From Hydrogenophilales bacterium (GTDB lineage Bacteria; Pseudomonadota; Gammaproteobacteria; Burkholderiales; Thiobacteraceae), in NCBI GenBank assembly GCA_016235775.1, contig JACRIU010000127.1:1-64000 (forward strand): DNA of 64,000 bases, given 5' to 3'. Each line of letters starts with the position of its first letter. Positions within the stretch are counted from its first letter, which is position 1. The notes below the pieces were generated by a model. That model searched no databases. It worked only from the letters and a program-made list of their open reading frames with translations, and was not told where the DNA came from. Positions 13,955 through 42,389 of this stretch are shown piece by piece. The translations under genes and the position numbers were made by a program.

Positions 13955-14998
13955 TCAGCTTGAAAACAGCTTTGCGATCTTTTCCGAATTGGGTGACAAC
14001 ACTACGCCCTTCTCGGTAATCAGTCCGGTGACTAAATCTGCCGGCGTCACGTCAAAAGCCGGATTGCGTATTGCGACCCCCGGCGCCGCCCACTGGCAAT
14101 CGCGGAAGCCGCTGACCTCTTCCGGCGCGCGCTCTTCAATCGGAATATCCGCGCCGCTGGCGATCGAACGATCGATGGTCGAGAGCGGGCAGGCGACGTA
14201 GAACGGAATGCCGTGGCGCCGCGCCAGTACCGCGACCATGTAGGTGCCAATTTTATTTGCGACGTCGCCGTTGGCCGCCACCCGGTCGGTTCCCACCACG
14301 ACGGCGTCTACTTCACCCTTGCTCATCAGATAGCCCGACATGTTGTCGGTAATCAGCGTGACAGGAATGTTCTCCTGCACCATCTCCCAGGCAGTCAAGC
14401 GAGCGCCTTGCAAAAATGGCCGCGTCTCGTCGGCGATAACAGAGACCTGCTTGCCCTGCGCCTTTGCCGACCGGATGACGCCCAGCGCCGTGCCCCACCC
14501 TGCCGTGGCGAGCGCACCGGCGTTGCAATGCGTCAATACGCGCGCGCCGTCCTTCAACAACGCGGCGCCAAAATCGCCCATCGCCCGGTTGATGCGAATA
14601 TCCTCGGCTGAAATCTCGTGCGCTTCCTGGAGCAAGCGCCCTGCAATTTGCAATGGCTCCGCAGTGCCCATGCTCGCCCATACGCCACGCATTCTTTCTA
14701 GCGCCCAGAATAGGTTTACCGCGGTGGGGCGGCTCTCTGCTAATGATTTGAATCCAAGATCGAGCTTTTCCGCAAAGCCGGCCAGCGTGTCTTCGCGCAA
14801 CCGCAAAGCCTCAAGCGCGACGCCATAGGCTGCCGCACAGCCGATGGCCGGCGCACCGCGCACGACCATGCTGCGTATGCCCTCCGCGACGCTGGCTGCG
14901 CAATCGTAGGCGATGTAATCGAAGCGCCCGGGCAGGATGCGCTGGTCGATCATTTCGAGCTTGTTGTAACGCCACCTTAAGGTCTCAATACCGGTCAT
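13955..14998 (-). CDS. mtnA: S-methyl-5-thioribose-1-phosphate isomerase
   Basis: MTGIETLRWRYNKLEMIDQRILP..., SMVVRGAPAIGCAAAYG, HCNAGALATAGWGTALGV, VVGTDRVAANGDVANKIGTY. Start set to 14998 rather than the longer track start. Confidence 0.92.
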   Translation of the reverse strand: MTGIETLRWRYNKLEMIDQRILPGRFDYIAYDCAASVAEGIRSMVVRGAPAIGCAAAYGVALEALRLREDTLAGFAEKLDLGFKSLAESRPTAVNLFWALERMRGVWASMGTAEPLQIAGRLLQEAHEISAEDIRINRAMGDFGAALLKDGARVLTHCNAGALATAGWGTALGVIRSAKAQGKQVSVIADETRPFLQGARLTAWEMVQENIPVTLITDNMSGYLMSKGEVDAVVVGTDRVAANGDVANKIGTYMVAVLARRHGIPFYVACPLSTIDRSIASGADIPIEERAPEEVSGFRDCQWAAPGVAIRNPAFDVTPADLVTGLITEKGVVLSPNSEKIAKLFSS

Positions 14999-15000
14999 GT

Positions 15001-17760
15001 TCATTTCGATTGTTGTAACTGTTGAATAGCGGCGCGCACAGTGTTGGGGTCGCATCCCAGTATGAGCGCACCAGGATGCTCGATATCCAGCGTGGACCAG
15101 TCGACATGCGGTGTACTTGGCGGCACGCCAAAGAATTTGCCGCGATAGCGCACGATGTTGTGACCAAGAAAGTTGTACTCCACCGCGATCGGCGTCTCAT
15201 CAAACCGCACGGGCGCGAGTTGCAGCGGCCGGCGCCGATACGCTGCGGCGTGGCGCGAATATCGCAAAGGATCGGCGGCGGAGTGATCGTCATAGCCGAA
15301 AGCCTCAAGATAATCCTTTGGTAATGCGTCGAGTTTGGCGCGTGCCGCCGCAGTAAGATTGGTGTGGTGCGCGCCAATCTGTCCGGCGTGAAAGGTTGCA
15401 GCATTTTTATTGAACACCAGATCGCCAAAATCGCGGGCGTTGCCGTCCACATGCAACTTGATCTGAAGCGACCAGATCAAGCGTGTTTGTGTTTCAACAT
15501 CGCCGCCGCCATTGGGGCCGATCAATTCCTCGAATGAAAGCGGCACGACATTGGGAAACGAGAGCCAAGGCACAAATCCGCCTACCCGTTCGCGCAGTGA
15601 GCCCAACAACCAAGGGTCGTCGATCAAGCGCAGCAGTCTTTCCTCGTACGACAAACCGGCGAAGTAGCCTTCGAACGCCGTGTTGCCATCGCGGTGATAG
15701 TAGTTCGCTTCGGAAACTACGATATCGAGCGGATGGCGATAGATAAACAATGTGGGCGTGTGCGGAAAGGGATGGTGTCTGTTGCCAAACGGGGCACGTC
15801 GCACAGTATCGATAAAGAAATCGCGCGCCGAAGTGTGGGAATTGGAGTATTCCACGCAATACCAACTGCCGGGGAGCGGCCTATCGGGCAATTCAATGCC
15901 CGCATCGTAGCCAAATGCCTGGACTAGCTCATATAAAAGATGCGTACCGGCCTTGGGAATCGAAATAAGAAATAGTGGCTGGTTGCGAAAGTGGCGTTCG
16001 GTGACCGGCGCGACCACCACACCGTCTTCGAGATCGACGAATTCCATTAAGGCATTCGATACCGCTTCGCCGCCGGGTTGGAACAACAGATAAGCATCCA
16101 GCGTCTGCCCCTCAGCTGGCTGCACTGCTCCACCCAATTCAGCACAGAGCAATTGCGGCGCGAAAAATGTCGCGCCGCTCGTCGCCACAGCAGGGCGTCG
16201 GAGAAACTCCGCAATCTCCGCCCCTCTCCCGCTCACACGCACGCGCTTGCGCGGACTTTGCAGCGCAACCAGTTGCAGCAAAACGTTTTCCATCTCCGCC
16301 TGGTTGTGGATGAAGTGCAGTTCAAGTTGTTTGGTCATGAGCTTGGGTTCGGCCTGGCTGGTGCTAAATTTATCGGCAACGTTGCATGGCGCTACAGTGT
16401 TTTTTAATTCCTTTTGAATCAATGCACTGGACGATTGAATCGCCTGTTCGAGCGGTGCACCCAGCGTTGATCCGTGCTTGTGCGCTAGACCTGCTAAGGC
16501 ATGCAAGCTCGCGTCGCGGGCAGTAAACGGCTCCGCCAGAAAGTCAGCCAAAAAGGCGTTCAATTCCGCCACGGCCTGTTCGGCGGCATCCCACACCCGG
16601 TACATCAGGGCATCGTCGGTGAAAATCGAACGCTCTACCTGGGTGTGTTCGCGCCAGTCATAGCGTTTGAACAGAAACTTGTCAGACACCAAATTGGATT
16701 TATTGAAGGCGAAGGTGAATAAATCCTGATCCGGGAAATCCCGATACACCTCGCCCCGGTCAAGATAGGCCTGCACCGCACGTTGGAATGGCGTGTAGGT
16801 CTGCGGGTCAAGATATTCCAAGTGGCCATAGCCGAGTTGCGCCATATAGGGCTCGATGCCATAAGACTTGGCCATTTCGATATGCGCGTTGGTCACACTA
16901 TAACGCCAATCGCCGATCTTGCCGTGCCCGGCTCGGTAATTGTGTTTGTGGTGGCCAGTGAGGTTCACATGATCGAGCCGGGCCCAGATATCCTGAGCGA
17001 CGGCCGTGTCGATGGCGATACCGGCATCGTGCGCCACATGCAGAATGGTTGGCACCGGATTGGAAATCAGATCCTCCCAGCGCATCAGGCTATAGCCGTC
17101 CTTGTGTTGAACGAAGTCCTCCAGATACGCGGTGAGATACTTGAGCAGCCCCTCGTAAAAATCCAAATCGGTAAATTTGTAAATCGCCAGGTTTTGCCGG
17201 ATGGAGTCGTTGTCCTCTTCCGGCGGGACAAACTTTTGAATGTATTCGCTCGCCAGCGCATTAATCGAATGAATCGCGGAATTGATGATGCCAATAGGAT
17301 GCCGCACTGAAGCGAACTTGGCGTAATCGGCATAACCGGGATGGTGAAGCCACAGGCCCGGATTTTCATGAGAGTGCAGAACCGGGTCGATGTCGAGTAA
17401 CTGACGCGGGTGTGAGGTTACCAGCGTGAAATCGCCCATTCCCCGAACACCAATGTACTTTCGGAAACAAGCAAACTCGGGGTTGTCCTTCTTCAGCCAC
17501 TTTGGCCCACCAGGAAGGTAGCGAAAGTTTGGGTTGAACAGTAAATCGTTTGTGATGCCTTCCTTAGCGAAGGTATTCACCACGCTATTGCTCATGTGGG
17601 AACCAATATGCTCAATGAAGTGCCGCAGCAAGGTGAGTTGAAAATCGCCCTTCACGCGGGTGTAGGGCAAGAGGTTCATGATCACGCTGATCAAGAGCGT
17701 GAAACCACTACGTGGCGCGCCGACAACAAGCGGCTTGAATTGTTTGAGCTTTAATCCCAT
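15001..17760 (-). CDS. Two-domain sulfotransferase-like protein, 919 aa
   Basis: N-terminal PLVVGAPRSGFTLLISVIMNLLP and second domain PLFLISIPKAGTHLLYELVQAFGY...PTLFIYRHPLDIVVSEANYYH. Confidence 0.75.
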   Translation of the reverse strand: MGLKLKQFKPLVVGAPRSGFTLLISVIMNLLPYTRVKGDFQLTLLRHFIEHIGSHMSNSVVNTFAKEGITNDLLFNPNFRYLPGGPKWLKKDNPEFACFRKYIGVRGMGDFTLVTSHPRQLLDIDPVLHSHENPGLWLHHPGYADYAKFASVRHPIGIINSAIHSINALASEYIQKFVPPEEDNDSIRQNLAIYKFTDLDFYEGLLKYLTAYLEDFVQHKDGYSLMRWEDLISNPVPTILHVAHDAGIAIDTAVAQDIWARLDHVNLTGHHKHNYRAGHGKIGDWRYSVTNAHIEMAKSYGIEPYMAQLGYGHLEYLDPQTYTPFQRAVQAYLDRGEVYRDFPDQDLFTFAFNKSNLVSDKFLFKRYDWREHTQVERSIFTDDALMYRVWDAAEQAVAELNAFLADFLAEPFTARDASLHALAGLAHKHGSTLGAPLEQAIQSSSALIQKELKNTVAPCNVADKFSTSQAEPKLMTKQLELHFIHNQAEMENVLLQLVALQSPRKRVRVSGRGAEIAEFLRRPAVATSGATFFAPQLLCAELGGAVQPAEGQTLDAYLLFQPGGEAVSNALMEFVDLEDGVVVAPVTERHFRNQPLFLISIPKAGTHLLYELVQAFGYDAGIELPDRPLPGSWYCVEYSNSHTSARDFFIDTVRRAPFGNRHHPFPHTPTLFIYRHPLDIVVSEANYYHRDGNTAFEGYFAGLSYEERLLRLIDDPWLLGSLRERVGGFVPWLSFPNVVPLSFEELIGPNGGGDVETQTRLIWSLQIKLHVDGNARDFGDLVFNKNAATFHAGQIGAHHTNLTAAARAKLDALPKDYLEAFGYDDHSAADPLRYSRHAAAYRRRPLQLAPVRFDETPIAVEYNFLGHNIVRYRGKFFGVPPSTPHVDWSTLDIEHPGALILGCDPNTVRAAIQQLQQSK

Positions 17761-27968: not shown

Positions 27969-29942
27969 TCAAATCACCCTATCGTTACCACCATCCACCG
28001 GCACTTGCGCGGCAGTGGTCTTGGCAAACAGCGAGCCGCATAGTTCAGCGGCAAGCTCAGCCACATCCTGGCTGGTCACTTCAGTTTTCAAGACATTGTT
28101 GCGTTTATATTCATCGACCGTGAGGCCGTAATGTTTAGCGCGCGCGGCCAAGACTTCTTCGGTCCAGATGCCGGTGTCGAACACGGCATTGGGGTGCAGG
28201 GTGTTGATGCGGATGCCATCCGCTCCCCACTCCAGGGCGGCGACGCGCATAAGCTGGTTGAGCGCAGCTTTAGATGCCGAATAAGCTGCTGCGCCCGGAC
28301 CCGGCGCGGGCACGTTCTTGGATCCGATCACCACCACGCGGCCATAACGCGGCGCGAGTTTGAGCAAGGGGTGCGCCTCGCGCATGAAGGAAAGATTCGC
28401 ATCCAGATTCACGCTCATCACTTTGCGCCATTCTTCGGAGCCGAGTTGATCGATGCGGCGGCCACCGGGGAAGATGCCGGCATTTAACACCAGCATGTCG
28501 AGGCCACCGAAACGGCGCACGGTTTGTTCCAGCGCGGATTGAATTTCGCTATCGCTGGAAATGTCGCAACGCAGGCCGAGATAATCATCGCGCTTGAATA
28601 GCGATGCAATCGCGGGATTGATATCGAGCCCCACCACCGCCGCGCCGCGCGCCAGCAGCGATTCGACGCAGGCCTTGCCGATGCCGGAGGCGGCGCCGGT
28701 CACCAGCGCGACTTCGCCCGCAAACGCCAAGGGCTTGCCGCTTTTCTTCAGCTTGGCCTGCTCCAAGTCCCAGTATTCCACATCGAAAATATCCTTGGCG
28801 GGCAGCGCCTGAAAACCGCCGAGCGCGGTAGCGCGCAGGATGATATCGATGGTGTGGTCGTATATGTCGGCGACGATGCCCGCGTCTTTCGCGCTGCGCC
28901 CGGCCGTGCACAGGCCGAATTCCGCATCGAGGATAACGCGTGGCGCGGGATCGAGCATGGTCTTGGGTTCTTTTGCGAGCATTGCATGCGCATCAAAATA
29001 AGCGCGGTATTGCGTGGCGTAATCCTCCAGATTGCGGCCCAGCATCGGAATGCGCTTGGTGCGGATCACATGATCCGGTGTCGCGGGGCCTTGGCGGGCG
29101 ATCACGTTGGCATCGGGCCGCTGGGCAAAGGCTAAATACTTTTCAGTCTGATCCGTCGCCAGAATCGCCGGTGCGCCCAGCATGGCTGATACTGATTTGC
29201 GCAAAGCCGCGATATCGCTGCGCAATGGACGATCCGGGGTGGCGGCTTTCGGCGCGGCGAGCTGCCAGGCATTCTGTGCCGCCAAATAGGCCTCCGCGTG
29301 CGACACCAGCGCGATCATGCGCTCGTAGGATTCTTGCGCGGTTTCGCCAAAGGAGAATATGCCGTGGTTCAGCAGCACCATGCCTTGCGTCTTGTCATTG
29401 GCTTCGCGCGCGAAGATCTCCGCCACCAGGCGCGCCAGATCGAAACCCGGCATCACATAGGGAATCACCACCACCTCCTGGCCGTAAATCTCGCGGATGC
29501 GCGCCTCGCCCTTGGCGGTGTTGGTGATGGCGATCACCGCATCGGCGTGGGTGTGATCGACATATTTGTACGGCAGCAGCGCGTGCAGGATGGTCTCGAC
29601 CGAGGGTGTGGGCGCCGAGGCGCGCGTCATGTGGGTGACGAGTTCATTCACCATTTGCGGATCGGGCAGCATGGAGAGCTTGGCCAGCTTCAGCATGTAG
29701 TCCAGGCGCACCGGCGAGAAGCCGGCGGCCTCGATGAATTCCAAGTCCCAGCCGCTGCCTTTGACGTACAGGCGTTGCTCGTCTTCGCCCAGGATGTTGG
29801 GCTCGGTGATTTTGACCGAGGTGTTGCCGCCGCCGTGCAGCACCAGCGTTTTATCCCTGCCCAGCAAACGCGAGGTGTAAATGCGCTGTTGCAAATCACC
29901 CTGATATTGGGCGGCTTCTTGATCGTTCCACAGACTTTGCAC
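27969..29942 (-). CDS. Bifunctional class II aldolase / short-chain dehydrogenase
   Basis: TLVLHGGGNTSVKITEP...VDHTHADAVIAITNT (aldolase), then EVALVTGAASGIGKACVESLLARGAAVVGLDIN...YSASKAAL (SDR). Confidence 0.88.
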   Translation of the reverse strand: MQSLWNDQEAAQYQGDLQQRIYTSRLLGRDKTLVLHGGGNTSVKITEPNILGEDEQRLYVKGSGWDLEFIEAAGFSPVRLDYMLKLAKLSMLPDPQMVNELVTHMTRASAPTPSVETILHALLPYKYVDHTHADAVIAITNTAKGEARIREIYGQEVVVIPYVMPGFDLARLVAEIFAREANDKTQGMVLLNHGIFSFGETAQESYERMIALVSHAEAYLAAQNAWQLAAPKAATPDRPLRSDIAALRKSVSAMLGAPAILATDQTEKYLAFAQRPDANVIARQGPATPDHVIRTKRIPMLGRNLEDYATQYRAYFDAHAMLAKEPKTMLDPAPRVILDAEFGLCTAGRSAKDAGIVADIYDHTIDIILRATALGGFQALPAKDIFDVEYWDLEQAKLKKSGKPLAFAGEVALVTGAASGIGKACVESLLARGAAVVGLDINPAIASLFKRDDYLGLRCDISSDSEIQSALEQTVRRFGGLDMLVLNAGIFPGGRRIDQLGSEEWRKVMSVNLDANLSFMREAHPLLKLAPRYGRVVVIGSKNVPAPGPGAAAYSASKAALNQLMRVAALEWGADGIRINTLHPNAVFDTGIWTEEVLAARAKHYGLTVDEYKRNNVLKTEVTSQDVAELAAELCGSLFAKTTAAQVPVDGGNDRVI

Positions 29943-29995
29943 ACTGGCCTCTTAATGAAGAATGTTAATCACGAATATATTAAGTGCTGCCCTGA

Positions 29996-30127
29996 ACTCG
30001 CCCTCTCCCCGGCCCCTCCCGCAAGTGGGAGAGGGGAGTAAAGTTTTCTCCCCTCTCACGCTTGCGGGAAGGGGGGATGATTTTGCTCCCCTCTCACGCT
30101 TGCGGGAGAGGGGCCGGGGGAGAGGGC
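29996..30127. repeat. Intergenic GC-rich inverted/direct repeat (CCCCTCTCACGCTTGCGGGAGAGGGG type)
   Basis: CTCTCCCCGGCCCCTCCCGCAAGTGGGAGAGGGG, two TCCCCTCTCACGCTTGCGGGA copies, then GAGAGGGGCCGGGGGAGAGG. Confidence 0.75.
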
Positions 30128-30139
30128 AAGCTAAATCAC

Positions 30140-30685
30140 CTAAGAACTCAAAATCCACTCCGCCGCCGCGCCGATGTCACGCACCACCAACACATTGGGC
30201 GGCAACTCGATGCGCGCTTCCGCGCCATAGCCGGTCTCAACCAAGATTGGCGTCACGCCGGCATTCAGCCCCGCTTCCACGTCGCTCACTTTATCACCGA
30301 TCATGTATGAGCTAGGGATATCCACCTCATGCTCGCGCGCGGCTTGCAACAGCATGCCCGGCTCGGGCTTGCGGCAATCGCAGTCGCGCAGCGCGCCGTG
30401 TTCGGGGTGATGCGGGCAATAGTAATAAGCGTCGATATGCCCGCCCTGGCGTTGCAAATCGGCATCGACTTGACGGTGCAGGGCGTCGATATCCGCTTCG
30501 CCGTACATGCCGCGCGCCACACCGGCTTGGTTCGAAGTGACGATGACCAGATAGCCCGCCGCATTGAAGCGCTTGATCGCCTCCACCGCGCCGGGTATCC
30601 ACTCCCAATCCTGCCAGAGGTGAAGATAATTTTTTTCGACGTTGAGCGTGCCGTCGCGGTCGATAAAAATTGCAGATTTAGACAT
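30140..30685 (-). CDS. gmhB: D-glycero-D-manno-heptose 1,7-bisphosphate phosphatase
   Basis: MSKSAIFIDRDGTLNVEKNYLH...VIVTSNQAGVARG...YYCPHHPEHG...CDCRKPEPGMLLQAA (HAD family, Zn-binding Cys/His). Confidence 0.92.
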   Translation of the reverse strand: MSKSAIFIDRDGTLNVEKNYLHLWQDWEWIPGAVEAIKRFNAAGYLVIVTSNQAGVARGMYGEADIDALHRQVDADLQRQGGHIDAYYYCPHHPEHGALRDCDCRKPEPGMLLQAAREHEVDIPSSYMIGDKVSDVEAGLNAGVTPILVETGYGAEARIELPPNVLVVRDIGAAAEWILSS

Positions 30686-31247
30686 GGTTCTTGTATCGGT
30701 AATAAGCGATGAGGGCGCCGGGCTCTTGAATTTCACCGCTTTCGATTAGCGTATCGATTTCACCCAGGGTAAAAAATTGCAGCGCGTGGTGGCCGAATTC
30801 CTCGGCGCTGAATTCGCTTTTGCGCGTGCAATGGCGGGCCAGAAACAAATGCACCCGGGCCGCCAGGGTGCCGGCTTCCGGCGCATACAGACCCAAGGAT
30901 TGCAGATCTTCGGGGCGGCAGGTGAGCCCGGTTTCCTCTTCCAGTTCGCGCAGCGCCGATACTTCCGGCATTTCGCCCTCGTCGATAAAGCCGCGCGGCA
31001 ATTCCCAGCAATAGGCGCGTAGCGGGTGGCGATAGACCTGCACCAAACCCACCTTCCCTTCCCAGATTGGAAACACTGACACGCCGGTGACGAGCTGATC
31101 GGTTTTGACGCGCGGTGCGACGACTAAATACTTCTCGACCTGTTGGCCGTCGGGCGCCTCGATGTGGTCAAAGAACAATTCAAAGCGCAAATTCTCGGCC
31201 ACCAGCCGATGCGCATGCAGTTTGATGGGGGGCGGTTTCTCGCTCAT
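30678..31247 (-). CDS. NUDIX hydrolase (ADP-ribose/ADP-sugar pyrophosphatase-like)
   Basis: GFIDEGEMPEVSALRELEEETGL Nudix box. Start overlaps the lhgO stop by ATGA (31244-31247). Confidence 0.88.
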   Translation of the reverse strand: MSEKPPPIKLHAHRLVAENLRFELFFDHIEAPDGQQVEKYLVVAPRVKTDQLVTGVSVFPIWEGKVGLVQVYRHPLRAYCWELPRGFIDEGEMPEVSALRELEEETGLTCRPEDLQSLGLYAPEAGTLAARVHLFLARHCTRKSEFSAEEFGHHALQFFTLGEIDTLIESGEIQEPGALIAYYRYKNHV

Positions 31248-32461
31248 GCGGCGGCTTTTTTCTGGTGCTGATCCACAATCGATTCGGCGAACGCGAACGA
31301 ACAAGTGAAGGCAGGCGAGATGGAATTCAACACATGCAGCGAGTCGGCCGTCTGCTCCAGCACGAAATCCATTTCCAAACGTTTTTGTTGCAGGTTCACC
31401 AATTGCGGCCGAATGCCGACTTTGTTGCATGGCAGCAAATCATCGGCGCGCACTTCCGGCACCAATTTGCGCGCGGCGGCCAGGAAATTCGCCTTACTGT
31501 ATTTCGCCATCTCGGCATGTACCAGATCACGGAAATGCTGATGATTGGCCGCATACATTTGCATCAGACGCCAAGCGATATTCATGGACTCGCCCAGATG
31601 CAGGCCAGAGAGCACGCCGTAATTTTCCCGCCCCCAGGCGGGGATGGCGGTTGGCCCCACATACACATCACCGCTTATCACGCGCGTGAGATGCACGCCG
31701 AGAAACGGCAGATTGATATCCGGCACCGGGTAGATACTGCTCTTCACCAGGTCGCCGCGTTCCGGACGCAGCTTGTAATACAAGCCTTTAAAGGGCAGCA
31801 GCGCGTATTGCGCGCCGGCGTTGAAAAAACGCGCGACGCGATCCGCGCTCGCACCCGCGCAGTTGAATAGATAACCATAGCCATAGCGATGCTGGTTCGC
31901 ATCGACGGTCTTTTGCCCGGTATCGACCGCGTTCACCGCGGCATTGAAGCGGAGGGTGACACCCTGCCCGCGCAGCAAGTCGCGCAGTTTGGCCACCACG
32001 CCGGGGCTGTCGATCACCGCCGTGTCGGGGCTGTAGATGCCGGCTTCGTAAGCATAAGCATGTGGCTCGATCTGGCGGATGCCGCCGGCGTCCAGCTTTT
32101 CGGCGCGGATGCCGTTATCGCGTGCGTTCTTGAGCAGGCGTTCGAGCGTCGGCAGTTCTTGCTGGCTGGTGGCGATGATGACCTTGCCTGAGCGTTCGCA
32201 ATGAATGCCATGCTCGGCGGCGAATTCGCGCATGCGCGCCGCACCCTTGGCGCAGTACTTGGCTTTGAGCGTATCGGCGGCGTAGTAGATGCCGGAGTGC
32301 AGCACGCCGCTGTTGCGTCCGCTGGCGTGGTAGCCGACATCCGGCTCTTTTTCCAGGATCAGGATGCGGGCGGCGGAATCGCGCCGCTTCAACTCCCAGG
32401 CGACGGTGAGGCCGACAATGCCGGCGCCGACGATAAGGTAGTCGTAGGTTTCCATGGTCAT
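31244..32461 (-). CDS. lhgO: L-2-hydroxyglutarate oxidase/dehydrogenase, FAD-dependent
   Basis: YDYLIVGAGIVGLTVAWEL...GRNSGVLHSGIYYAADTLKAKYC...YPVPDINLPFLGVHLTRVISGDVYVGPTAIPA, close to E. coli LhgO. Confidence 0.9.
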   Translation of the reverse strand: MTMETYDYLIVGAGIVGLTVAWELKRRDSAARILILEKEPDVGYHASGRNSGVLHSGIYYAADTLKAKYCAKGAARMREFAAEHGIHCERSGKVIIATSQQELPTLERLLKNARDNGIRAEKLDAGGIRQIEPHAYAYEAGIYSPDTAVIDSPGVVAKLRDLLRGQGVTLRFNAAVNAVDTGQKTVDANQHRYGYGYLFNCAGASADRVARFFNAGAQYALLPFKGLYYKLRPERGDLVKSSIYPVPDINLPFLGVHLTRVISGDVYVGPTAIPAWGRENYGVLSGLHLGESMNIAWRLMQMYAANHQHFRDLVHAEMAKYSKANFLAAARKLVPEVRADDLLPCNKVGIRPQLVNLQQKRLEMDFVLEQTADSLHVLNSISPAFTCSFAFAESIVDQHQKKAAA

Positions 32462-32531: not shown

Positions 32532-33473
32532 TCACACGTTGCCGTACAGCGAGTTGCGAATCATCGTGTAGCCTTTGACCAACTCGGCGATGCCCGTATC
32601 CAATGAATATTGCTGCTTGAAGCCGGTGGCTTCGATCTTGGCGTTGGAGACGATGTAGTTGCGCTGGTCGGGATCTTTGCCGACGGGAGCGTCGAGATAG
32701 ACGAATTCCGGCACATGTTTGGCGATGTGCTCACATAGTTCTTTCTTCGACACGTTGGCGTCGGACAAGCCCACGTTGTAGATCTGCCCCTTCATCTTGT
32801 CGTAATTGTTCAACGCATGCATGAACACCCGCATCACGTCGCGCACATGGATGTAGTTGCGCTTGAACTGGCTCTCGAACAGCACCACGAAGCGATCGTA
32901 CACCGCGCGGTAGGTGAAGTCGTTGACCAACAGGTCGATGCGCATGCGCGGCGACATGCCGAACACCGTGGCCAAGCGGAAACTGATCGAATTGGGGTGA
33001 TCCATAAACGCCTTTTCGATTTCCACTTTCTCGATCGCGTACTGGGAAATCGGGCGCAAGGGCGATTCTTCCGTGCAGTAGTTGTTTTCGTCGCCGGTGC
33101 CATAGGCGCTGTTGGTGGTCGGCATGAGCAGGATTTGATCCTTGGACACATGCTTCAGCATCATCATGATGGCGTCGTGGTTGATGGTGGTCGCCCCCAC
33201 CGGGTCTTTGGAACACAGCGGCGCGCCGACCAGCGCCGCGAGCGGAATAATCACATCGGCTTTTTTCATCAGCGGCAGCATGGCGCTCTCGACGCGGATA
33301 TCGCCTTTCACCACCTCGAAATTCGGGTGATGGCACACGTGGTTGAGGCTGGTCTGCTTGAACATGAAGTTGTCGATGACCGTCACTTTATAACCGGCAT
33401 TGAGCAGCTCCGGCACCATGGTCGAACCGAGATAGCCCGCACCGCCTGTAACTAGAATATGTTTCATAATCAC
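32532..33473 (-). CDS. NAD-dependent epimerase/dehydratase family protein; candidate GDP-heptose C4-dehydrogenase (Cj1427-like)
   Basis: ILVTGGAGYLGSTMVPELLNAGYKVTVIDNFMF...LAALVGAPLCSKDP...TTNSAYGTG...CTEESPLRPISQYAIEKVE...FRLATVFGMSPRMRIDLLVNDFTYRA...RNYIHVRDV. Confidence 0.85.
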   Translation of the reverse strand: MIMKHILVTGGAGYLGSTMVPELLNAGYKVTVIDNFMFKQTSLNHVCHHPNFEVVKGDIRVESAMLPLMKKADVIIPLAALVGAPLCSKDPVGATTINHDAIMMMLKHVSKDQILLMPTTNSAYGTGDENNYCTEESPLRPISQYAIEKVEIEKAFMDHPNSISFRLATVFGMSPRMRIDLLVNDFTYRAVYDRFVVLFESQFKRNYIHVRDVMRVFMHALNNYDKMKGQIYNVGLSDANVSKKELCEHIAKHVPEFVYLDAPVGKDPDQRNYIVSNAKIEATGFKQQYSLDTGIAELVKGYTMIRNSLYGNV

Positions 33474-33592: not shown

Positions 33593-34177
33593 TTAATCAA
33601 AAAACATTGCTGCTTCAACGCTTTCGCACAGGGTATGCGCGAGTACGATATGCAATTCCTGGATGGTGCTGGTTTCCGCGCCCGGCACGATCACGCCATG
33701 ATCGGCCAAAGGCTTGGCCTGCCCGCCGTCGCGGCCACAGAAGACGATGCTGGGCACGCCCATTGCGCGCGCTGTGGTTAGCGCTTTTAAAATATTGGGG
33801 GACTGGCCCGATGTAGTGATGCCGAGGAACACATCGCCTTTGCGCGCCTTGCCAGCCAGTTGCCGCGCGAATATTTCGTCGTAGCCGTAATCGTTGCCGA
33901 TGGCGGTGATAATCGAGCTGTCGGTGGTCAAGGCTTCCGCGGGCAGCGGCGCGCGGTCCCGCGCCAGCTTGCTCACGAATTCGGCCGCGAGATGCTGGGC
34001 ATCCGCCGCGGAGCCGCCATTGCCCGCGATATACAGCCGTCCGCCGCTGCGATAGGCAGCCACCACCACCGCTACCGCTTGGCTGAAGGCCGCTTGCGCC
34101 GGGGCATTGGTCAGCAAGGCCTGCTGGGCGGCGATGGAGGCTTGCAGATTTTTAATCAGTCGATCGTGTGGGGTCAT
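33593..34177 (-). CDS. gmhA: D-sedoheptulose-7-phosphate isomerase
   Basis: SIS fold: RLYIAGNGGSAADAQHLAAEFVSKL...GNDYGYDEIFARQL...GITTSGQSPNILKAL. Confidence 0.9.
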   Translation of the reverse strand: MTPHDRLIKNLQASIAAQQALLTNAPAQAAFSQAVAVVVAAYRSGGRLYIAGNGGSAADAQHLAAEFVSKLARDRAPLPAEALTTDSSIITAIGNDYGYDEIFARQLAGKARKGDVFLGITTSGQSPNILKALTTARAMGVPSIVFCGRDGGQAKPLADHGVIVPGAETSTIQELHIVLAHTLCESVEAAMFFD

Positions 34178-34182
34178 CTTCT

Positions 34183-34881
34183 TTAGTTCGGCAATATATC
34201 GGCTGCGCGGTAATAATCGTCCGGTATGCCGATATCGATAAAATTCGTGCCGGTGACAAATCCAACCACGCGCTTTCCGGCTTTTAATAGGCGTGGAAAC
34301 AAATCCTGTTCCAGCGCAACTTTATCGCCGGGCGCGTAGCCCAAGCCGAGCAGCACGGCAGGCCGCACCAAATACACGCCGCCGTTGATTATACCTTCGC
34401 CCCCGCTCGCCGCCGCGCTAAAGGCGGCCACGTTACCCTGCGCGTCCAGCGCCACTTCGCCATAGCGATCGTTATGCGCAATCCGCCGCAGCGCGACGGT
34501 GACATCGGCCAGCAAAGCGTCATGCCGCGCGCGCAGCTCGGCCAGATTTACCTCAAAAAAAGTATCGCCGTTCAGGACCAAAACCAAATCATCCTGCGCT
34601 TGGCTGAGCCCTAACAGCAAACCGCCGCCCGTGCCGAGCGGGGTTGCTTCGCGCGCATACACGACAGGGCATTGCCGGTAGGCGCCGCCGAAATGCGCTT
34701 CGATCAATTCATGCATATAGCCGACCGACAAAATAAAGCGCGTCACGCCCTGCCCGATCCAATAATCCATTTGATGCTCGAGAAAGGGCCGGTTGCGAAT
34801 CGGCGCCATCGGCTTGGGCAAATCCGGCACCGCTTCGCGTAAACGCGTGCCGAGGCCGCCGGCGAGAATCAGCGCATCCAT
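34183..34881 (-). CDS. hddC: D-glycero-alpha-D-manno-heptose 1-phosphate guanylyltransferase
   Basis: MDALILAGGLGTRLREAVPDLPKPMAPIRNRPFLEHQMDYW...; in a cluster with gmhA, hddA and gmhB. Confidence 0.85.
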   Translation of the reverse strand: MDALILAGGLGTRLREAVPDLPKPMAPIRNRPFLEHQMDYWIGQGVTRFILSVGYMHELIEAHFGGAYRQCPVVYAREATPLGTGGGLLLGLSQAQDDLVLVLNGDTFFEVNLAELRARHDALLADVTVALRRIAHNDRYGEVALDAQGNVAAFSAAASGGEGIINGGVYLVRPAVLLGLGYAPGDKVALEQDLFPRLLKAGKRVVGFVTGTNFIDIGIPDDYYRAADILPN

Positions 34882-36050
34882 TAGACGGCAGCGCGCGTCA
34901 GCACTTCGTGGAAGCGCGTGATCTGCGGTGTAATGTCCTGCGGATGATTGCCGACGAAGAACCCGCGATCATGCGCCAGGTTGGCGTTCACAATTTTTCC
35001 GACGGTATCGTAATCGAAATACTTGATCACGTCGTGGCGCAGGAAACAGCCGCCGGTGATGATGCGGTAGCCGATATCGGCGTCTTTCAGCGCTTGCATC
35101 ACGCGCTTGCGGTCGATATCGAATTTCGGGTTCAGAATCACGGTGAAAGCGAACCAGGAGCTGTTGCCGTTCTCGCGCTGGATGATGAAGCGCTCGTCGC
35201 CCTTGAATAACTTGGTAAAGAGCGACGCATTCTTGCGCCGCACGTCGATCATGCCGTCGAGTTTTTTGAGTTGCTCAATACCAATCGCGCCCGATAGCTC
35301 CAGCGGCCGCGCATTGTAGCCGGGCAAAATAAAACGATAGGCTTCATAAAAGTCATCGTCGCGTTTCTCATAAATATCGCTATCCGCCGGCAGATCGCGC
35401 GTCCAGCCATGCGCGCGCAGCGATTTGGCGATGTGATACAGCTCGGTATTATCGGTCACCACCACGCCGCCTTCCATGGTGGCGATGTGGTGCGAGAAGA
35501 AAGAACTGAAGGTGCCGATATCGCCGAAGGTGCCGGTAAGCTGGCCATTCAGCGTCGCCCCCATCGACTCGCAATTGTCTTCGAACAGATACAAGCCGTG
35601 CTTGTCGCAAAACGCGCGCATCACATCCAGCGCCGCCGGGTTGCCGAGGATGCTCACCGCCATCACCATGCGCGTCTTGGGCGTCAACGCCGCTTCGAGC
35701 TTGGACACATCCAGATTGAGCGTATCGAGCTCAACATCCACGAAACGCAGGCGCAGGCCGTATTGCTGCAGCGGATAATAGGTCGTGGACCAGGAGATCG
35801 CCGGCACGATCACTTCGTCGCCGCGCTGCAAGGGACGCTCCTTTTTAAAGAACAGCGCGCCGACGCCGACCAAGTTCGCGGCCGAACCGGATCTCACCAT
35901 CAAGGCGTGCTTGGAGCCGAATTTCCTGGCGAAATCTTCTTCAAACTTGCGTACGTTCGCCCCCATGGTGAATAGACCGGTTTGAATCACGCGCTGCATG
36001 GCGTCGATTTCTTCGGTGCCCCAGGAGGTGCTGGCTAATTCGTAAAACAT
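34881..36050 (-). CDS. ColD-like sugar-nucleotide 3-dehydratase (DegT/DnrJ/EryC1 fold, His at the PLP-Lys position)
   Basis: YELASTSWGTEEIDAMQRVIQTGLFTMG...IVPAISWSTTYYPLQQYGLRLRFVDVELDTLN...LFEDNCESMGATLNGQLTGTFGDIGTFSSFFSHHIATMEGG...RAHGWTRDLP. Confidence 0.88.
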   Translation of the reverse strand: MFYELASTSWGTEEIDAMQRVIQTGLFTMGANVRKFEEDFARKFGSKHALMVRSGSAANLVGVGALFFKKERPLQRGDEVIVPAISWSTTYYPLQQYGLRLRFVDVELDTLNLDVSKLEAALTPKTRMVMAVSILGNPAALDVMRAFCDKHGLYLFEDNCESMGATLNGQLTGTFGDIGTFSSFFSHHIATMEGGVVVTDNTELYHIAKSLRAHGWTRDLPADSDIYEKRDDDFYEAYRFILPGYNARPLELSGAIGIEQLKKLDGMIDVRRKNASLFTKLFKGDERFIIQRENGNSSWFAFTVILNPKFDIDRKRVMQALKDADIGYRIITGGCFLRHDVIKYFDYDTVGKIVNANLAHDRGFFVGNHPQDITPQITRFHEVLTRAAV

Positions 36051-36071
36051 GGCGATCCTTTTTAAAAAAAA

Positions 36072-36378
36072 AACAATAGACAGGATTAACAGGATTTTTC
36101 AGGATTAACAGGAAGACCGCTGATATAAAAGTACCAGAATATAAATCAATCGTCTTGCTTACTGATGAGGCCGTCAATTTGTGCGTACTCGGCAAATCGC
36201 CCCCTCCCCCTTGATGGGGGAGGGCTGGGGAGAGGGTGAAAATATGAGCTGTTTCTACCCCTCTCCCCAACCCTCTCCCACAAGGGGAGAGGGGGCGCAC
36301 GGTGAATCCAGTTACGCACTATTTACCGACCTGCTCAGTAACTAACCACAAGAAAAATCCTGTTAATCCTGTCCATTG
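36072..36378. repeat. Nested intergenic inverted repeat
   Basis: Outer arms CAATAGACAGGATTAACAGGATTTTT (to 36099) and AAAAATCCTGTTAATCCTGTCCATTG (36353-36378); second CAGGATTAACAGGA at 36100; inner GGGGGAGGG/CCCTCTCCC elements at ~36198-36300. Confidence 0.8.
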
Positions 36379-36391
36379 CCTTTAATACCGA

Positions 36392-37429
36392 TTACTTTCC
36401 ACACAACTCGCGAATCGTCGTGCTGATGCGCTTCACATCCGGATAGAGAAATTGTTCCAGGGTATAGCCGGCCGGGTGCGGAATGTCCGGCAAGCCGATG
36501 CGGCGCACCGGCGCTTTGAGCGAATCGAACCATTTTTCGGCGGCGAGGCAGCCGATCTCGGCGCATACGCCGCCCATCGCCCAGCCCGTGTCCACCACCA
36601 CCAGGCGCCCGGTTTTTTTCAGCGACTCGGCGATGATTTCTTCGTCCAGGGGTTTGATCGTGCGCAGGTCGATCACTTCGGCGTCGATGCCCTCGGCAGC
36701 CAATTTGTTGGCGGCTTGCAAGCCCAACTCCAAGGCATGGGATGCGCCGACGATGGTCACGTCCTTGCCGCGCCGGCGGTAGATGCCTTTGCCCAGCGGC
36801 ACGCGGTAAAAACCTTCAGGCACGATGCCGTCTTTTTTCATCAGCCAGCGATGCTCGAACACCAGCACCGGGTTGTTGTCGAGGATGGCGGAGAGCATCA
36901 GGCCCTTGGCGTCATACGGCGAGCTCGGCATCACGATTTTCAAGCCCGGCACGCCGATCAGCAAGCCTTGAATCGCCTGCGAATGCTGCGCGCCGGAACC
37001 CCAGCCGCGGCCGATGGCGGCCCACACCACCATGGGTACCTTGGTCAGGCCGTTGTCCATGTAATGCATTTTCGCGGCGTGCGTCACCAACTGGTTGAAC
37101 GCCAGCAGAATGAAATCCGGCCGGTTGTGCATGAATACCGGGCGCAAACCGTTCATCGCCGCGCCGACGCTCATGCCCATCATGCCCTCTTCCGACAGGG
37201 GTGAATCGAACACGCGCTTCTCGCCGAATTTATCCTGCAGATCCTTGGTCACGCCAAACATCGCGGTCGGGTCATCCACGCCCTGGCCGAACACAAACAC
37301 CGAGGGATCCTGCTCGAGCGCGATCTCCAGCGCCTCGTTCACGGCCTTGGCATAGCCCAACACCCGCCCTTCCTTCGGATCGGGTGCGTCATACACCAGC
37401 GAATTGACTAAACCTTCATCCCACGGCAT
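36392..37429 (-). CDS. TPP-dependent dehydrogenase E1 beta-like / transketolase C-half-like subunit
   Basis: FVFGQGVDDPTAMFGVTKDLQDKFGEKRVFDSPLSEEGMMGMSVGAAMNGLRPVFMHNRPDF...DVTIVGASHALELGL...EVIDLRTIKPLDEE. Confidence 0.88.
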   Translation of the reverse strand: MPWDEGLVNSLVYDAPDPKEGRVLGYAKAVNEALEIALEQDPSVFVFGQGVDDPTAMFGVTKDLQDKFGEKRVFDSPLSEEGMMGMSVGAAMNGLRPVFMHNRPDFILLAFNQLVTHAAKMHYMDNGLTKVPMVVWAAIGRGWGSGAQHSQAIQGLLIGVPGLKIVMPSSPYDAKGLMLSAILDNNPVLVFEHRWLMKKDGIVPEGFYRVPLGKGIYRRRGKDVTIVGASHALELGLQAANKLAAEGIDAEVIDLRTIKPLDEEIIAESLKKTGRLVVVDTGWAMGGVCAEIGCLAAEKWFDSLKAPVRRIGLPDIPHPAGYTLEQFLYPDVKRISTTIRELCGK

Positions 37430-37441
37430 GTGTGTGGCCTC

Positions 37442-38467
37442 TCAATCAGCGTACACATGCGTGTACAAATCGGCTTCGCTTGGATTGGGGCTGGCGAGCG
37501 CGAAGTCGAAGGCTTCCATCGTCTCCGCCATGATTTCGCCCGCCATGACTTTGCGCGCCTGCTCGTCGATCAGGCCGGCCGATTTCAGAAACGCAAAATA
37601 GGTTTCGATCGGGCAGACTTTTTGCCACGCCTCGCGCTCGGCGATATCGCGATAGCCGGTCTTGCTGTCGTCGCCCGCCCCGCCATGGGCGCGGAAGCGA
37701 TACACCGGCGATTCGATGAAGGTGGGGCCGCCGCCTTGCCTGGCGCGCGCCACCGCCGCTTGCATGGCCTCATACACCGCCAATACATTCGTGCCATCCA
37801 CCAGCACGCTCGGCATGCCATAGCTTGCCGCCCATTTGTAGATTTCGCGCTTGGGCTGACGGGTATGCAGCGGCGATTGCACCGAGTAAAAATTATTCTC
37901 GCAGAAATAGATGATGGGCAGTTGCTTCAGCGCCGCGAAGTTGAGCGCCTCGGACACCGCTCCCTCTTCGGTGGCGGCATCGCCGAGAAACACCGTCGTC
38001 ACATAACTCGCGTTTTGCATCTGTGCGGCGAATGCCGCGCCGGTGGCGATCGGCACCACGCCGGCGACGATGGCCGAGCTGCCGGCCATGCCGACCGATT
38101 TATCCATCAAGTGCATCGAACCGCCGCGCGACCCGACGCAACCATTGATGCGGCAATGCATTTCGCACAACATGGCTTTCAGATCGCCGCCTTTGGCAAA
38201 ATAGTTGCCGTGCGTGCGGTGGCTGGCGTAGAGCAAATCGGCATGCGTCAAGGCCGCGCAGGCGCCGACCGAGGTCGCCTCCTGCCCGATCACCAAATGG
38301 ATCGGCGACTTCATGTGGTCTTGCCAATAGCGGCGCTCGATTTCTTCCTCGATGATGCGGATGCGCAACATGTCGCGGAACAGCTTGAGCAGGAACACCG
38401 GCTCGTAGTGGCTTAGCTTTTCCTGCCAGCCGGCAAAGCCGGTACCGTGGTAGTCGTAGCGAATCAT
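37442..38467 (-). CDS. TPP-dependent dehydrogenase E1 alpha-like subunit
   Basis: HLVIGQEATSVGACAALTHADLLYASHRTHGNYFAKGG...GSRGGSMHLMDKSVGMAGSSAIVAG...FLGDAATEEGAVSEALNFAALKQLPIIYFCENN. Confidence 0.9.
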   Translation of the reverse strand: MIRYDYHGTGFAGWQEKLSHYEPVFLLKLFRDMLRIRIIEEEIERRYWQDHMKSPIHLVIGQEATSVGACAALTHADLLYASHRTHGNYFAKGGDLKAMLCEMHCRINGCVGSRGGSMHLMDKSVGMAGSSAIVAGVVPIATGAAFAAQMQNASYVTTVFLGDAATEEGAVSEALNFAALKQLPIIYFCENNFYSVQSPLHTRQPKREIYKWAASYGMPSVLVDGTNVLAVYEAMQAAVARARQGGGPTFIESPVYRFRAHGGAGDDSKTGYRDIAEREAWQKVCPIETYFAFLKSAGLIDEQARKVMAGEIMAETMEAFDFALASPNPSEADLYTHVYAD

Positions 38468-38470
38468 TGT

Positions 38471-39465
38471 TTAACCTAATCCATTCGGTTGATACATCAC
38501 AATCTTGCTGCCCGAGGTGTCGAATTTAATCGGCACATAGATCAAGCCCTTCAATTTTTCACGGATCGCGGCATGCTGCTCGGGACGCGCAAAAAACATC
38601 AGGAAGCCGCCACCGCCCGCGCCCAGCAGCTTGCCGCCGAGCGCGCCCGCCGATATCGCCGCTTCATAGATCTGGTCGATCTCGGGGGTGGTCACCTTGT
38701 CTGACAGCTTGCGCTTGTATTGCCAATTTTCGTTCAGGAGCTTGCCGAAATCGTCGAAGTTGTCCTTTTCGCTCCCGAGAATGCTGAGCGCTTCATCCAC
38801 CAGCGCGCGCATCATGCGCAGCTCGGTCTTGCGTTGATTGAGATTGTCGATCTTGGCCTTGGCCACGTCCGAGGCATAGCGCGAAATGCCGGTAAAAAAC
38901 AGCATCAAATGCGATTCCAGCGACTCGCGCCGTTCCGGGCGCAAGATCACCGGATTGACGTCTATCGAGCCGTCTTGATGGAACTCGATCTTGTTGAAGC
39001 CGCCATAGGCCGCGGACACTTGATCTTGCGAGCCGACATTCTCCTGGATCAGATCCTGCTCGACATGAAGCGCATGCTGCAACAGCTTTTCCTTGGTGAC
39101 GTACATCCCCTTCATCGCCATCAGCGCATTGATCAGGCCGACCGTGAAGGAAGAGCTGGAACCGAGCCCGGAGCGCGCCGGCAGATCGCCGTCATGATGC
39201 ACTTCGATCCCGCGCACGCAATTCATCCATTGCAGCACCTCGCGCACCGCCGGATGCTCGATCTGCGACAACTCCGCCACATTCTCGATGCGGGAATAGA
39301 CGATGCGGTATTTATGCTCGAAAAAAGGCGGCAGATAGCGGCAACTGATGTAGCAGTATTTGTCGATCGCCGTCGCCAGCACCGCGCCGCCGTGTTCGCG
39401 GTACCAGGCCGGATAATCCGTGCCGCCGCCGAAAAAGGAAATGCGAAAGGGAGTACGGCTGATAA

Positions 39466-39469
<4 letters not shown>
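38471..39469 (-). CDS. hddA: D-glycero-alpha-D-manno-heptose 7-phosphate kinase (GHMP family)
   Basis: [42 protein letters not shown]...LPARSGLGSSSSFTVGLINAL...GGKLLGAGGGGFLMFF. Confidence 0.92.
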
Positions 39470-40983
<1,514 letters not shown>

Positions 40984-41642: not shown

Positions 41643-42389
41643 CTAGCTGGCGTGCAAGGCAACCAAATGCTCGAGGATGTTGCGCACGCGCTGCATGGAT
41701 TGCTTCAACACCGCTTCGACTTCATCGTAATGCACCGCGTCCTTGCTCGATCCGCGGCCCGCGGCGAAATTCGCCACCACGCCGATCGTGGCGTAACACA
41801 GCCCGATTTCCTTGGCGAGCCCGGCTTCCGGCATGCCGGTCATGCCCACCATGGTCGCGCCGTCACGCTCCAGGCGATTGATCTCCGCTTTCGATTCCAG
41901 GCGCGGCCCCTGCACCGCCGCATAGACGCCGCCATCAACACAGGTCTCGCCCGCTGCCTGCGCCGCGCGCAAACAAAGCTCGCGCATTTTTTGGCAATAC
42001 GGCTCGGTGAAATCCATGTGCACCACCGGCTTGTCCTTGCCTTCGCGAAAGGTGGTTTTGCGGCCATGCGTGTAATCGATGATCTGATCCGGGATCACAA
42101 TCGTGCCCGGCTTCAAATCCGCATGAATGCCCCCGACCGAGGCCACCGACACCAGATCCTTGACGCCGCGCGAGTGGATCGCCCAGATATTTGCGCGGTA
42201 GTTCACTTCGTGCGGCGGGATGGTATGGCCGTAGCCGTGCCGCGCCAGAAAAATGATTTCCTCGTTCGATAGCCGGCCGATAGTCAGCGCGCCGGAGGGC
42301 TCGCCGAAGGGCGTGCGGATCACTTGGCGATGGGTAATTTCAAGGTTGGCGAGTTGCGTCAGGCCGGAGCCGCCGATAATTGAGAGCAT
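41643..42389 (-). CDS. mtnP: S-methyl-5'-thioadenosine/thioinosine phosphorylase
   Basis: LSIIGGSGLTQL...FLARHGYGHTIPPHEVNYRANIWAI...YAAVQGPRLESKAEI...MVGMTGMPEAGLAKE. Confidence 0.88.
   Translation of the reverse strand: MLSIIGGSGLTQLANLEITHRQVIRTPFGEPSGALTIGRLSNEEIIFLARHGYGHTIPPHEVNYRANIWAIHSRGVKDLVSVASVGGIHADLKPGTIVIPDQIIDYTHGRKTTFREGKDKPVVHMDFTEPYCQKMRELCLRAAQAAGETCVDGGVYAAVQGPRLESKAEINRLERDGATMVGMTGMPEAGLAKEIGLCYATIGVVANFAAGRGSSKDAVHYDEVEAVLKQSMQRVRNILEHLVALHAS

Follow-up and report, generated by a model that had tools for sequence, protein, structure and literature searches.

The window, by which we mean the whole 64,000-nucleotide stretch of DNA analysed here, carries a minus-strand operon in which GDP-heptose genes stand together with a sugar 3-dehydratase and an E1 alpha/beta pair; all genes of this operon described below are on that strand. 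Judged by best NCBIfam matches, the set for GDP-D-glycero-D-manno-heptose is complete in the operon, consisting of a GmhA sedoheptulose 7-phosphate isomerase (33593–34177, SIS domain, phosphoheptose isomerase 181 bits, cut-off 276), an HddA-type D-glycero-D-manno-heptose 7-phosphate kinase (38471–39469, GHMP kinase, HddA 154 bits, cut-off 600), a GmhB heptose 1,7-bisphosphate 7-phosphatase (30140–30736, NF006506, 194 bits, cut-off 178) and an HddC-type heptose 1-phosphate guanylyltransferase (34183–34881, NTP_transferase, HddC 175 bits, cut-off 300); among the four, only GmhB passes its equivalog cut-off. A NUDIX hydrolase gene (30678–31430), recognised from its own sequence and from a match to an annotated NUDIX gene in L122, recurs in related clusters. 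A bifunctional aldolase/SDR (27969–29942) was rejected as a pathway member because it was not detected in the gammaproteobacterial or acidobacterial clusters.

Dehydrogenase, oxidase and 3-dehydratase genes

The short-chain dehydrogenase (SDR) encoded at 32532–33473 resembles one PDB sequence specifically, the GDP-heptose 4-dehydrogenase Cj1427 (6vo6; 382 bits, 168/310 residues or 54% identical), the runner-up in the PDB scoring 77 bits. C4 oxidation of GDP-heptose by this SDR had been proposed in a first-pass annotation of the locus, and finding a predicted Cj1427-type 4-dehydrogenase in the same operon as a ColD relative speaks in favour of the proposal. Cj1427 yields a 4-keto heptose and L-2-hydroxyglutarate, and in combination with a ColD-type dehydratase gives GDP-3-deoxy-4-keto-heptose, a sugar reported there solely as an in-vitro product (PMC10680097). 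Both of these activities appear to be encoded in the window operon. A 6-deoxyheptose product was rejected, as an SDR of the Cj1427 type only oxidises and no gene for a 4,6-dehydratase turned up in the operon.

An L-2-hydroxyglutarate oxidase, LhgO, is encoded at 31244–32461 and scores above its curated equivalog cut-off (NF008726, 365 versus 299 bits); both Solidesulfovibrio magneticus and L143 likewise have an lhgO gene beside a Cj1427-type SDR. We propose that LhgO may return 2-oxoglutarate to the dehydrogenase by recycling its L-2-hydroxyglutarate by-product, and the adjacent gene gives indirect support to a 2-oxoglutarate-dependent turnover of the window SDR. The gene had been overlooked in the earlier annotation.

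The DegT-fold protein (34881–36050, Pfam DegT 261 bits) is closest to dehydratases, scoring 435 bits against ColD (2gms; 198/382 residues or 52% identical), 183 bits against CDP-sugar 3-dehydrase and 131 bits against the best aminotransferase. As had been claimed for it, the protein carries the ColD signature: the motif SSFFSHHIATMEGG is present, and His187, which replaces the PLP lysine, aligns with the catalytic His of ColD. The same column is occupied by Asn in PDB entry 3b8x, a ColD mutant whose substitution we take to be H188N in literature numbering. The His is kept in every orthologue whose motif was read. At the level of sequence, the protein is thus confirmed as a ColD-type, PMP-dependent sugar 3-dehydratase.

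The E1 alpha (37442–38467) and E1 beta (36392–37429) genes lie upstream of the 3-dehydratase gene, as previously described, but are not immediately adjacent to it. A 341-nt palindromic repeat insertion with 27-nt inverted ends (36051–36391, no strand assigned) splits the operon between the E1 beta and 3-dehydratase genes; in the relative L033 the corresponding gap is 29 nt, and the insertion was not found in relatives.

At 39466–40983 the operon encodes a radical SAM enzyme with a B12-binding-type N-domain (PF04055 and PF02310), whose gene is a conserved partner of the pathway genes in relatives and had likewise escaped notice. Its CxxxCxxC motif is invariant in 10 homologues. The best NCBIfam match is HpnJ (188 bits, cut-off 578) and the best PDB match is AprD4 (6fd2); either identity was rejected, the scores falling far under the family cut-offs.

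An E1 alpha/beta pair and the question of its E2

E1 alpha matches Pfam E1_dh (222 bits) and retains the Mg ligands D163, N192 and Y194, while E1 beta matches Transket_pyr (112 bits) and Transketolase_C (125 bits) and retains E80 and H149. A role as a transketolase supplying sedoheptulose 7-phosphate was rejected for the window pair on account of its E1_dh family. Q49 and N112 of E1 beta sit where dehydrogenase E1s keep acidic residues. These two positions are Gln and Asn in 14/14 core-clade E1 beta sequences, whereas the acids are kept on the E2-linked side. Loss of the proton-wire residue E88 was dropped as evidence, that column not being conserved in the E2-linked set.

The first-pass annotation had noted the absence of E2 and E3 from the window, and this is the case: PF00198 gave no match, and the three FAD-disulphide (E3-like) proteins of the assembly all lie outside the window. 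No E2 (PF00198) was found in the whole assembly searched (3.0 Mb, 93% complete), nor was the canonical PDH locus of relatives, and no link of the window pair to an E2 was seen at this completeness. In a tree of E1 sequences, which took in one uncharacterised Streptomyces plasmid pair (L120) and no characterised sugar-branching pairs, the window pair falls in an E2-free branch with a bootstrap of 100; an E2 is encoded nearby in 0/38 cases on this branch versus 13/18 on the other side of the tree. Relatives encode exactly one E2 per genome, which adjoins a different E1 wherever the locus was read. The window thus holds an orphan E1 pair within a keto-deoxysugar gene cluster, as in the alphaKADH2 sugar-branching class (PMC12247030).

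Conservation of the cluster and exchange of ThDP enzymes

HddA, E1ab and ColD are kept together in 14 of the 15 genomes with close E1 relatives, which belong to Beta- and Gammaproteobacteria and Acidobacteria; the close relative L075 has E1ab with no ColD beside it. In a second, independent sample seeded on the SDR, a ThDP enzyme was present in 9/9 loci with a His-type DegT protein. As can be seen across these nine loci, the ThDP slot is filled by E1ab, by a mini-E1 (one of them a weak E1-alpha match) or by a split transketolase, which replace one another. The association of His-type DegT with ThDP enzymes is by itself weak in this sample (Fisher p = 0.04) because ThDP pairs occur without His-type DegT as well: at L149 and L150 the SDR is accompanied by a ThDP pair with no DegT gene nearby, indicating that 3-deoxygenation is not in every case a prerequisite of the ThDP step. 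The swap of E1ab for a split transketolase was not remarked on in the earlier annotation.

A GDP-fucose-synthase-like reductase gene accompanies the cluster in some relatives, and one is present in G000 at C56. The acidobacterial and Solidesulfovibrio versions include an additional reductase, whereas no reductase gene was found among the operons read from Beta- and Gammaproteobacteria.

Proposed pathway and alternatives

Taken together, the operon looks able to encode the predicted branched 3-deoxyheptose pathway, and we put the probability that it makes a GDP-linked, nine-carbon, C4-branched 3-deoxyheptose for a surface glycan at roughly two in three. The interpretation offered in the first-pass annotation is supported as far as sequence can test it. 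The SDR would oxidise C4 of GDP-heptose, its bound NADH being reoxidised by 2-oxoglutarate to L-2-hydroxyglutarate, a conversion that LhgO would reverse. The ColD-type enzyme, with PMP formed from glutamate, would then strip O3 to give GDP-3-deoxy-4-keto-heptose. The three pathway steps that lead to this sugar are each predicted from close similarity to enzymes of established function. E1ab with ThDP would next decarboxylate a 2-oxoacid, probably pyruvate, and join the acetyl anion to the keto group at C4, forming a 4-C-acetyl tertiary alcohol; this carboligation we infer from enzyme family, gene context, the absent E2 and recurrent co-occurrence. The C–C bond at C4, its donor, the final stereochemistry and the role of the radical SAM enzyme are likewise inferred. 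In the best reading, the product would be GDP-3-deoxy-4-C-acetyl-heptose, a branched nonose precursor of the glycan, and the reductase of some relatives may reduce the branch ketone.

All of these steps have precedents in other sugars, though not in combination on a heptose. The Campylobacter jejuni pathway (HS:5/HS:11) shares the GDP-heptose substrate, the 4-dehydrogenase and the His-type 3-dehydratase family, although Cj1427 and a C3-dehydratase were combined only in vitro for GDP-3-deoxy-4-keto-heptose (PMC10680097), and its described natural pathways use epimerases and C4-reductases with no ThDP enzyme, unlike the window operon with its E1ab. ColD of colitose biosynthesis also has His for the PLP lysine, but acts on a hexose, GDP-4-keto-6-deoxymannose, whereas the predicted substrate here is a heptose that keeps O6. 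In yersiniose A biosynthesis, also for a Gram-negative surface polysaccharide, a 4-keto NDP-sugar is 3-deoxygenated by a His-type 3-dehydratase and then receives a C2 unit at C4 in a ThDP-dependent reaction, as proposed here; however, that route uses a CDP-hexose and YerE, a single-chain decarboxylase-family flavoprotein, in place of GDP-heptose and an E1 alpha/beta pair. Actinomycete E1ab pairs attach C2 branches to keto-sugars (PMC4802897, PMC12247030). Those of aldgamycin, paulomycin (Plm8/Plm9), avilamycin (AviB1/AviB2) and kibdelomycin (KbDH) are likewise orphan pairs in keto-sugar clusters, with C2 addition from pyruvate proposed or shown, and are likened to the window pair by description, not sequence; they act in antibiotic pathways, whereas the window type sits among heptose genes of Proteobacteria and Acidobacteria. 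The split-gene transketolases of miharamycin and amipurimycin, for which C2 transfer to a keto-sugar is proposed but whose function is itself unproven (PMC12247030), correspond to the two-gene transketolases in the ThDP slot of sister heptose clusters; the window has E1ab.

An unbranched 3-deoxyheptose, finished by C4 reduction with a reductase encoded elsewhere while E1ab serves separately, for example in transketolase-like precursor supply, is unlikely but the strongest competitor. The 3,6-dideoxyheptoses of C. jejuni are finished by a C4-reductase (PMC10440746), the ThDP slot sometimes holds a split transketolase, a GDP-fucose-synthase-like gene occurs in some relatives and in G000, and the reductase of the acidobacterial and Solidesulfovibrio versions, which we count against branching, could reduce C4 instead. 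However, the beta- and gammaproteobacterial operons that were read encode no reductase, transketolase scores of the window E1 are just marginal, and genomes with a split transketolase mostly carry a full-length one elsewhere. Exchange of E1 with transketolase is better matched by a shared C2-transfer role, and supports C2 addition to the 4-ketone.

Somewhat less probable is a carboligation with another donor or position, such as a longer 2-oxoacid, a hydroxyacetyl unit or a ketone generated by the radical SAM enzyme. E1-type enzymes branch C3 as well as C4, yet those known to date move C2 from pyruvate (PMC12247030); the conserved, so far unassigned radical SAM gene speaks for this reading, but C4 is the sole ketone expected from the identified enzymes. 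That the pair serves as E1 in a conventional 2-oxoacid dehydrogenase complex with E2 and E3 elsewhere, which the first-pass annotation had set against its own reading, is improbable: the incomplete assembly, missing the PDH locus of relatives, and its E3-like proteins leave some room for this role, but we rejected it on the E2 searches and the tree, as the sole E2 of relatives adjoins another E1, no member of the window branch is E2-linked and the two acidic E1 beta residues are replaced throughout the core clade. An aminotransferase making a 4-amino heptose is scarcely credible, for although the Pfam family (DegT_DnrJ_EryC1) consists mostly of aminotransferases, the PLP lysine is His here and in the orthologues read, and ColD is the nearest solved enzyme by a large margin.

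If the branched heptose is correct, it would be made by a GDP-sugar route, would place an E1-type branching enzyme beyond antibiotic pathways and would give GDP-3-deoxy-4-keto-heptose a natural setting. More tentatively, at slightly under even odds, a modular family of GDP-heptose pathways may be widespread in environmental bacteria. Its 4-keto heptose, for the most part also 3-deoxy, would receive a C-branch from the ThDP enzyme that each cluster happens to encode, so that E1ab, a mini-E1 or a split transketolase would attach an acetyl or hydroxyacetyl group. A radical SAM enzyme of the B12 type would be coupled to these pathways and carry out a further, undescribed reaction on the heptose. 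Transketolase members of the tertiary-alcohol-forming ThDP class are uncharacterised (PMC12247030), and clusters that are otherwise similar but have either E1ab or a split transketolase would allow donor choice among such enzymes to be compared in a natural setting. The cultured Solidesulfovibrio magneticus RS-1 carries a version of the cluster on plasmid pDMC1, making the question directly testable.

Operon layout and the dehydrogenase-dehydratase genes

On its minus strand the window carries a compact operon, extending from a radical SAM gene (40983-39466) through HddA (39469-38471), E1 alpha (38467-37442), E1 beta (37429-36392), a DegT-fold protein (36050-34881), HddC (34881-34183), GmhA (34177-33593), an SDR (33473-32532), an FAD oxidase (32461-31244) and a NUDIX protein (31430-30678) to GmhB (30736-30140). 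HddA, HddC, GmhA and GmhB are named after their best NCBIfam matches; the equivalog cut-off is passed by GmhB alone. Most adjacent genes overlap or are separated by no more than about 120 nt, except that E1 beta and the DegT gene stand 341 nt apart; palindromic repeats, whose inverted ends are 27 nt long, take up this gap. This insertion (36051-36391) is absent from relatives; at L033, a locus in another genome, the gap is 29 nt. Palindromic interspersed repeats of the CCCTCTCCCC type lie between operon genes at both 36051-36391 and 29943-30139. The NUDIX hydrolase recurs beside E1 alpha/beta (E1ab) clusters of unrelated bacteria (loci L121, L122 and L123).

The closest solved structure to the DegT-fold protein is ColD (435 bits, with identity at 198 of 382 aligned residues), compared with 183 bits for the next family, the CDP-sugar 3-dehydrases, and 131 bits for the best aminotransferase. 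Its His187 aligns with the ColD residue mutated to Asn in entry 3b8x, which bears out the first-pass annotation, where a His at the PLP-lysine position had been read as the ColD signature. The protein is of the same enzyme type as the ColD-type enzymes of C. jejuni HS:5 and HS:11, for which removal of O3 from GDP-4-keto-heptose has been shown (PMC10440746). The active-site His is retained in all orthologues with a readable motif.

The SDR shares 168 of 310 residues with PDB entry 6vo6 (Cj1427), a match that scores 382 bits where the second-ranked sequence reaches 77; the generic SDR proposed earlier is thus present and is more exactly a Cj1427 relative. Both Cj1427-type 4-dehydrogenase and ColD-type 3-dehydratase activities are predicted from the operon's sequence. 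The FAD oxidase gene, which follows the SDR, matches L-2-hydroxyglutarate oxidase in NCBIfam (365 bits, above the cut-off of 299). Since the ColD step would free 2-oxoglutarate from glutamate, the SDR, oxidase and ColD-type genes plausibly make up a cofactor cycle.

An E1 pair without E2

The only real E1_dh gene in the source assembly is the window E1 alpha, and no E2 was found there; because this assembly is 93% complete, the relatives weigh more on the E2 question. Exactly one E2 is present in each of 9/9 relatives and, at the fully read E2 loci (genomes G001, G003 and G008), it adjoins an E1 pair other than the window's, the two sharing about 33-35% identity. A tree built from concatenated E1ab sequences (56 pairs) divides, with a bootstrap of 100, into sides of 38 and 18 pairs, with a nearby E2 for 0/38 and 13/18, respectively (Fisher 4.5e-9, relatedness ignored). 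E1 beta retains the catalytic E80 and H149, and E1 alpha its Mg ligands. In a descriptive comparison, two E1 beta positions, E28 and D91 of the so-called proton wire (B. stearothermophilus numbering), are Gln and Asn in 14/14 window-clade members and acidic in 18/18 on the other side. A second E2-free E1ab group (L101, L104, L107, L114 and L121) lies beside SIS-domain, HldE-like kinase and SDR genes, at some loci also with radical SAM or Lys-type DegT genes, which suggests another sugar pathway using an orphan E1 pair.

Scanning genome contigs with E1 alpha gave 15 loci (67-97% identity) in Betaproteobacteria, Gammaproteobacteria (including Sulfuricaulis) and Acidobacteria. When the window and another genome (60% identity) were added and contigs reaching far enough were counted, ColD adjoined E1ab in 14/15 genomes, in variable gene order and with L075 as the exception; among these 14, the SDR was next in 11/11 loci with room. 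On a plasmid of Azospirillum thermophilum, E1ab (41%), ColD (71%) and SDR (62%) are consecutive. Plasmid pDMC1 of Solidesulfovibrio magneticus RS-1 groups radical SAM, HddA, E1 alpha (45%), E1 beta (57%), a GDP-fucose-synthase-like gene, SDR (59%), HddC and lhgO with a His-type DegT that belongs to another lineage (29%).

ThDP enzymes around the 4-keto-heptose SDR

In a less biased test seeded with the SDR, 399 genomes across the phylum were searched, and 16 loci with their flanks were read, excluding the window. Nine carry a His-type DegT, all with a ThDP enzyme nearby: a split transketolase in six (L144, L146, L147, L152, L153 and L155), where it takes the place of E1ab beside the DegT and Cj1427-like SDR genes, and a fused E1ab, a mini-E1 pair and a weak E1-alpha-like match in one each. 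By rough hand counts of the other ThDP pairs in those genomes, the expected frequency of a pair lying no more than 20 kb away is about 0.4-2% for each case. Neither of the two Lys-type DegT loci in this sample has a ThDP enzyme, two further loci have a split transketolase without a DegT, and inside the sample His-type DegT and ThDP enzymes are associated only marginally (p = 0.04). A firmer conclusion is that ThDP pairs cluster around the 4-keto-heptose SDR, with three ThDP families interchanging. The mini pair (L145:13157-14300; about 180-230 residues per chain), between HddA and the His-type DegT gene, contains E1_dh and Transket_pyr domains only, without Transketolase_C; an E1-alpha-like relative occurs in L158.

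Proposed branching and neighbouring genes

That transketolase takes the place of E1ab in otherwise similar clusters is best accounted for by a common role, transfer of a two-carbon unit to the ketone. Precedents exist for both families: E1 pairs serve the acetyl branches of aldgamycin, paulomycin and kibdelomycin, with in vitro testing in the case of kibdelomycin (PMC12247030; PMC4802897), and split transketolases have been proposed for the hydroxyacetyl branches of miharamycin and amipurimycin (PMC12247030). In yersiniose the same task falls, following 3-deoxygenation, to YerE, a single-chain enzyme. By analogy with these precedents, we favour GDP-3-deoxy-4-C-acetyl-heptose as the product that E1ab would form by attaching the unit to the ketone. 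No recognised reductase for the branch was found in the beta- and gammaproteobacterial clusters; the acidobacterial and Solidesulfovibrio clusters carry a GDP-fucose-synthase-like gene that may serve in branch reduction. Reduction could instead take place at C4, by an enzyme encoded outside the operon, which is possible given that a different contig of genome G000 carries a gene matching GDP-fucose synthase strongly. Every chemical step leading to the favoured acetyl-branched heptose already has precedent; new in the searched literature, which omitted most subscription journals, are the use of these steps together on a heptose, E1-type branching beyond antibiotic clusters, and a ThDP slot that is modular.

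A radical SAM protein is found in most of these heptose clusters, including two without DegT (L149 and L150). This conserved enzyme of the B12-binding type lies with the heptose genes in the window (39466-40983) and in L066, L068-L071, L074, L122, L144-L147, L149, L150, L153 and L155. None of the known families fits, the nearest named relatives, HpnJ and AprD4, scoring far under membership; the protein may act on the heptose, at whatever stage. Downstream in the window are many glycosyltransferase- and sulfotransferase-like genes, candidates read from translations. Also encoded in the window are proteins that resemble MtnA and MtnP by sequence (13955-15055 and 41643-42389) and, at 27969-29942, a fusion of class II aldolase and SDR (1122 bits in NCBIfam); together these could salvage 5'-deoxyadenosine or methylthioadenosine.
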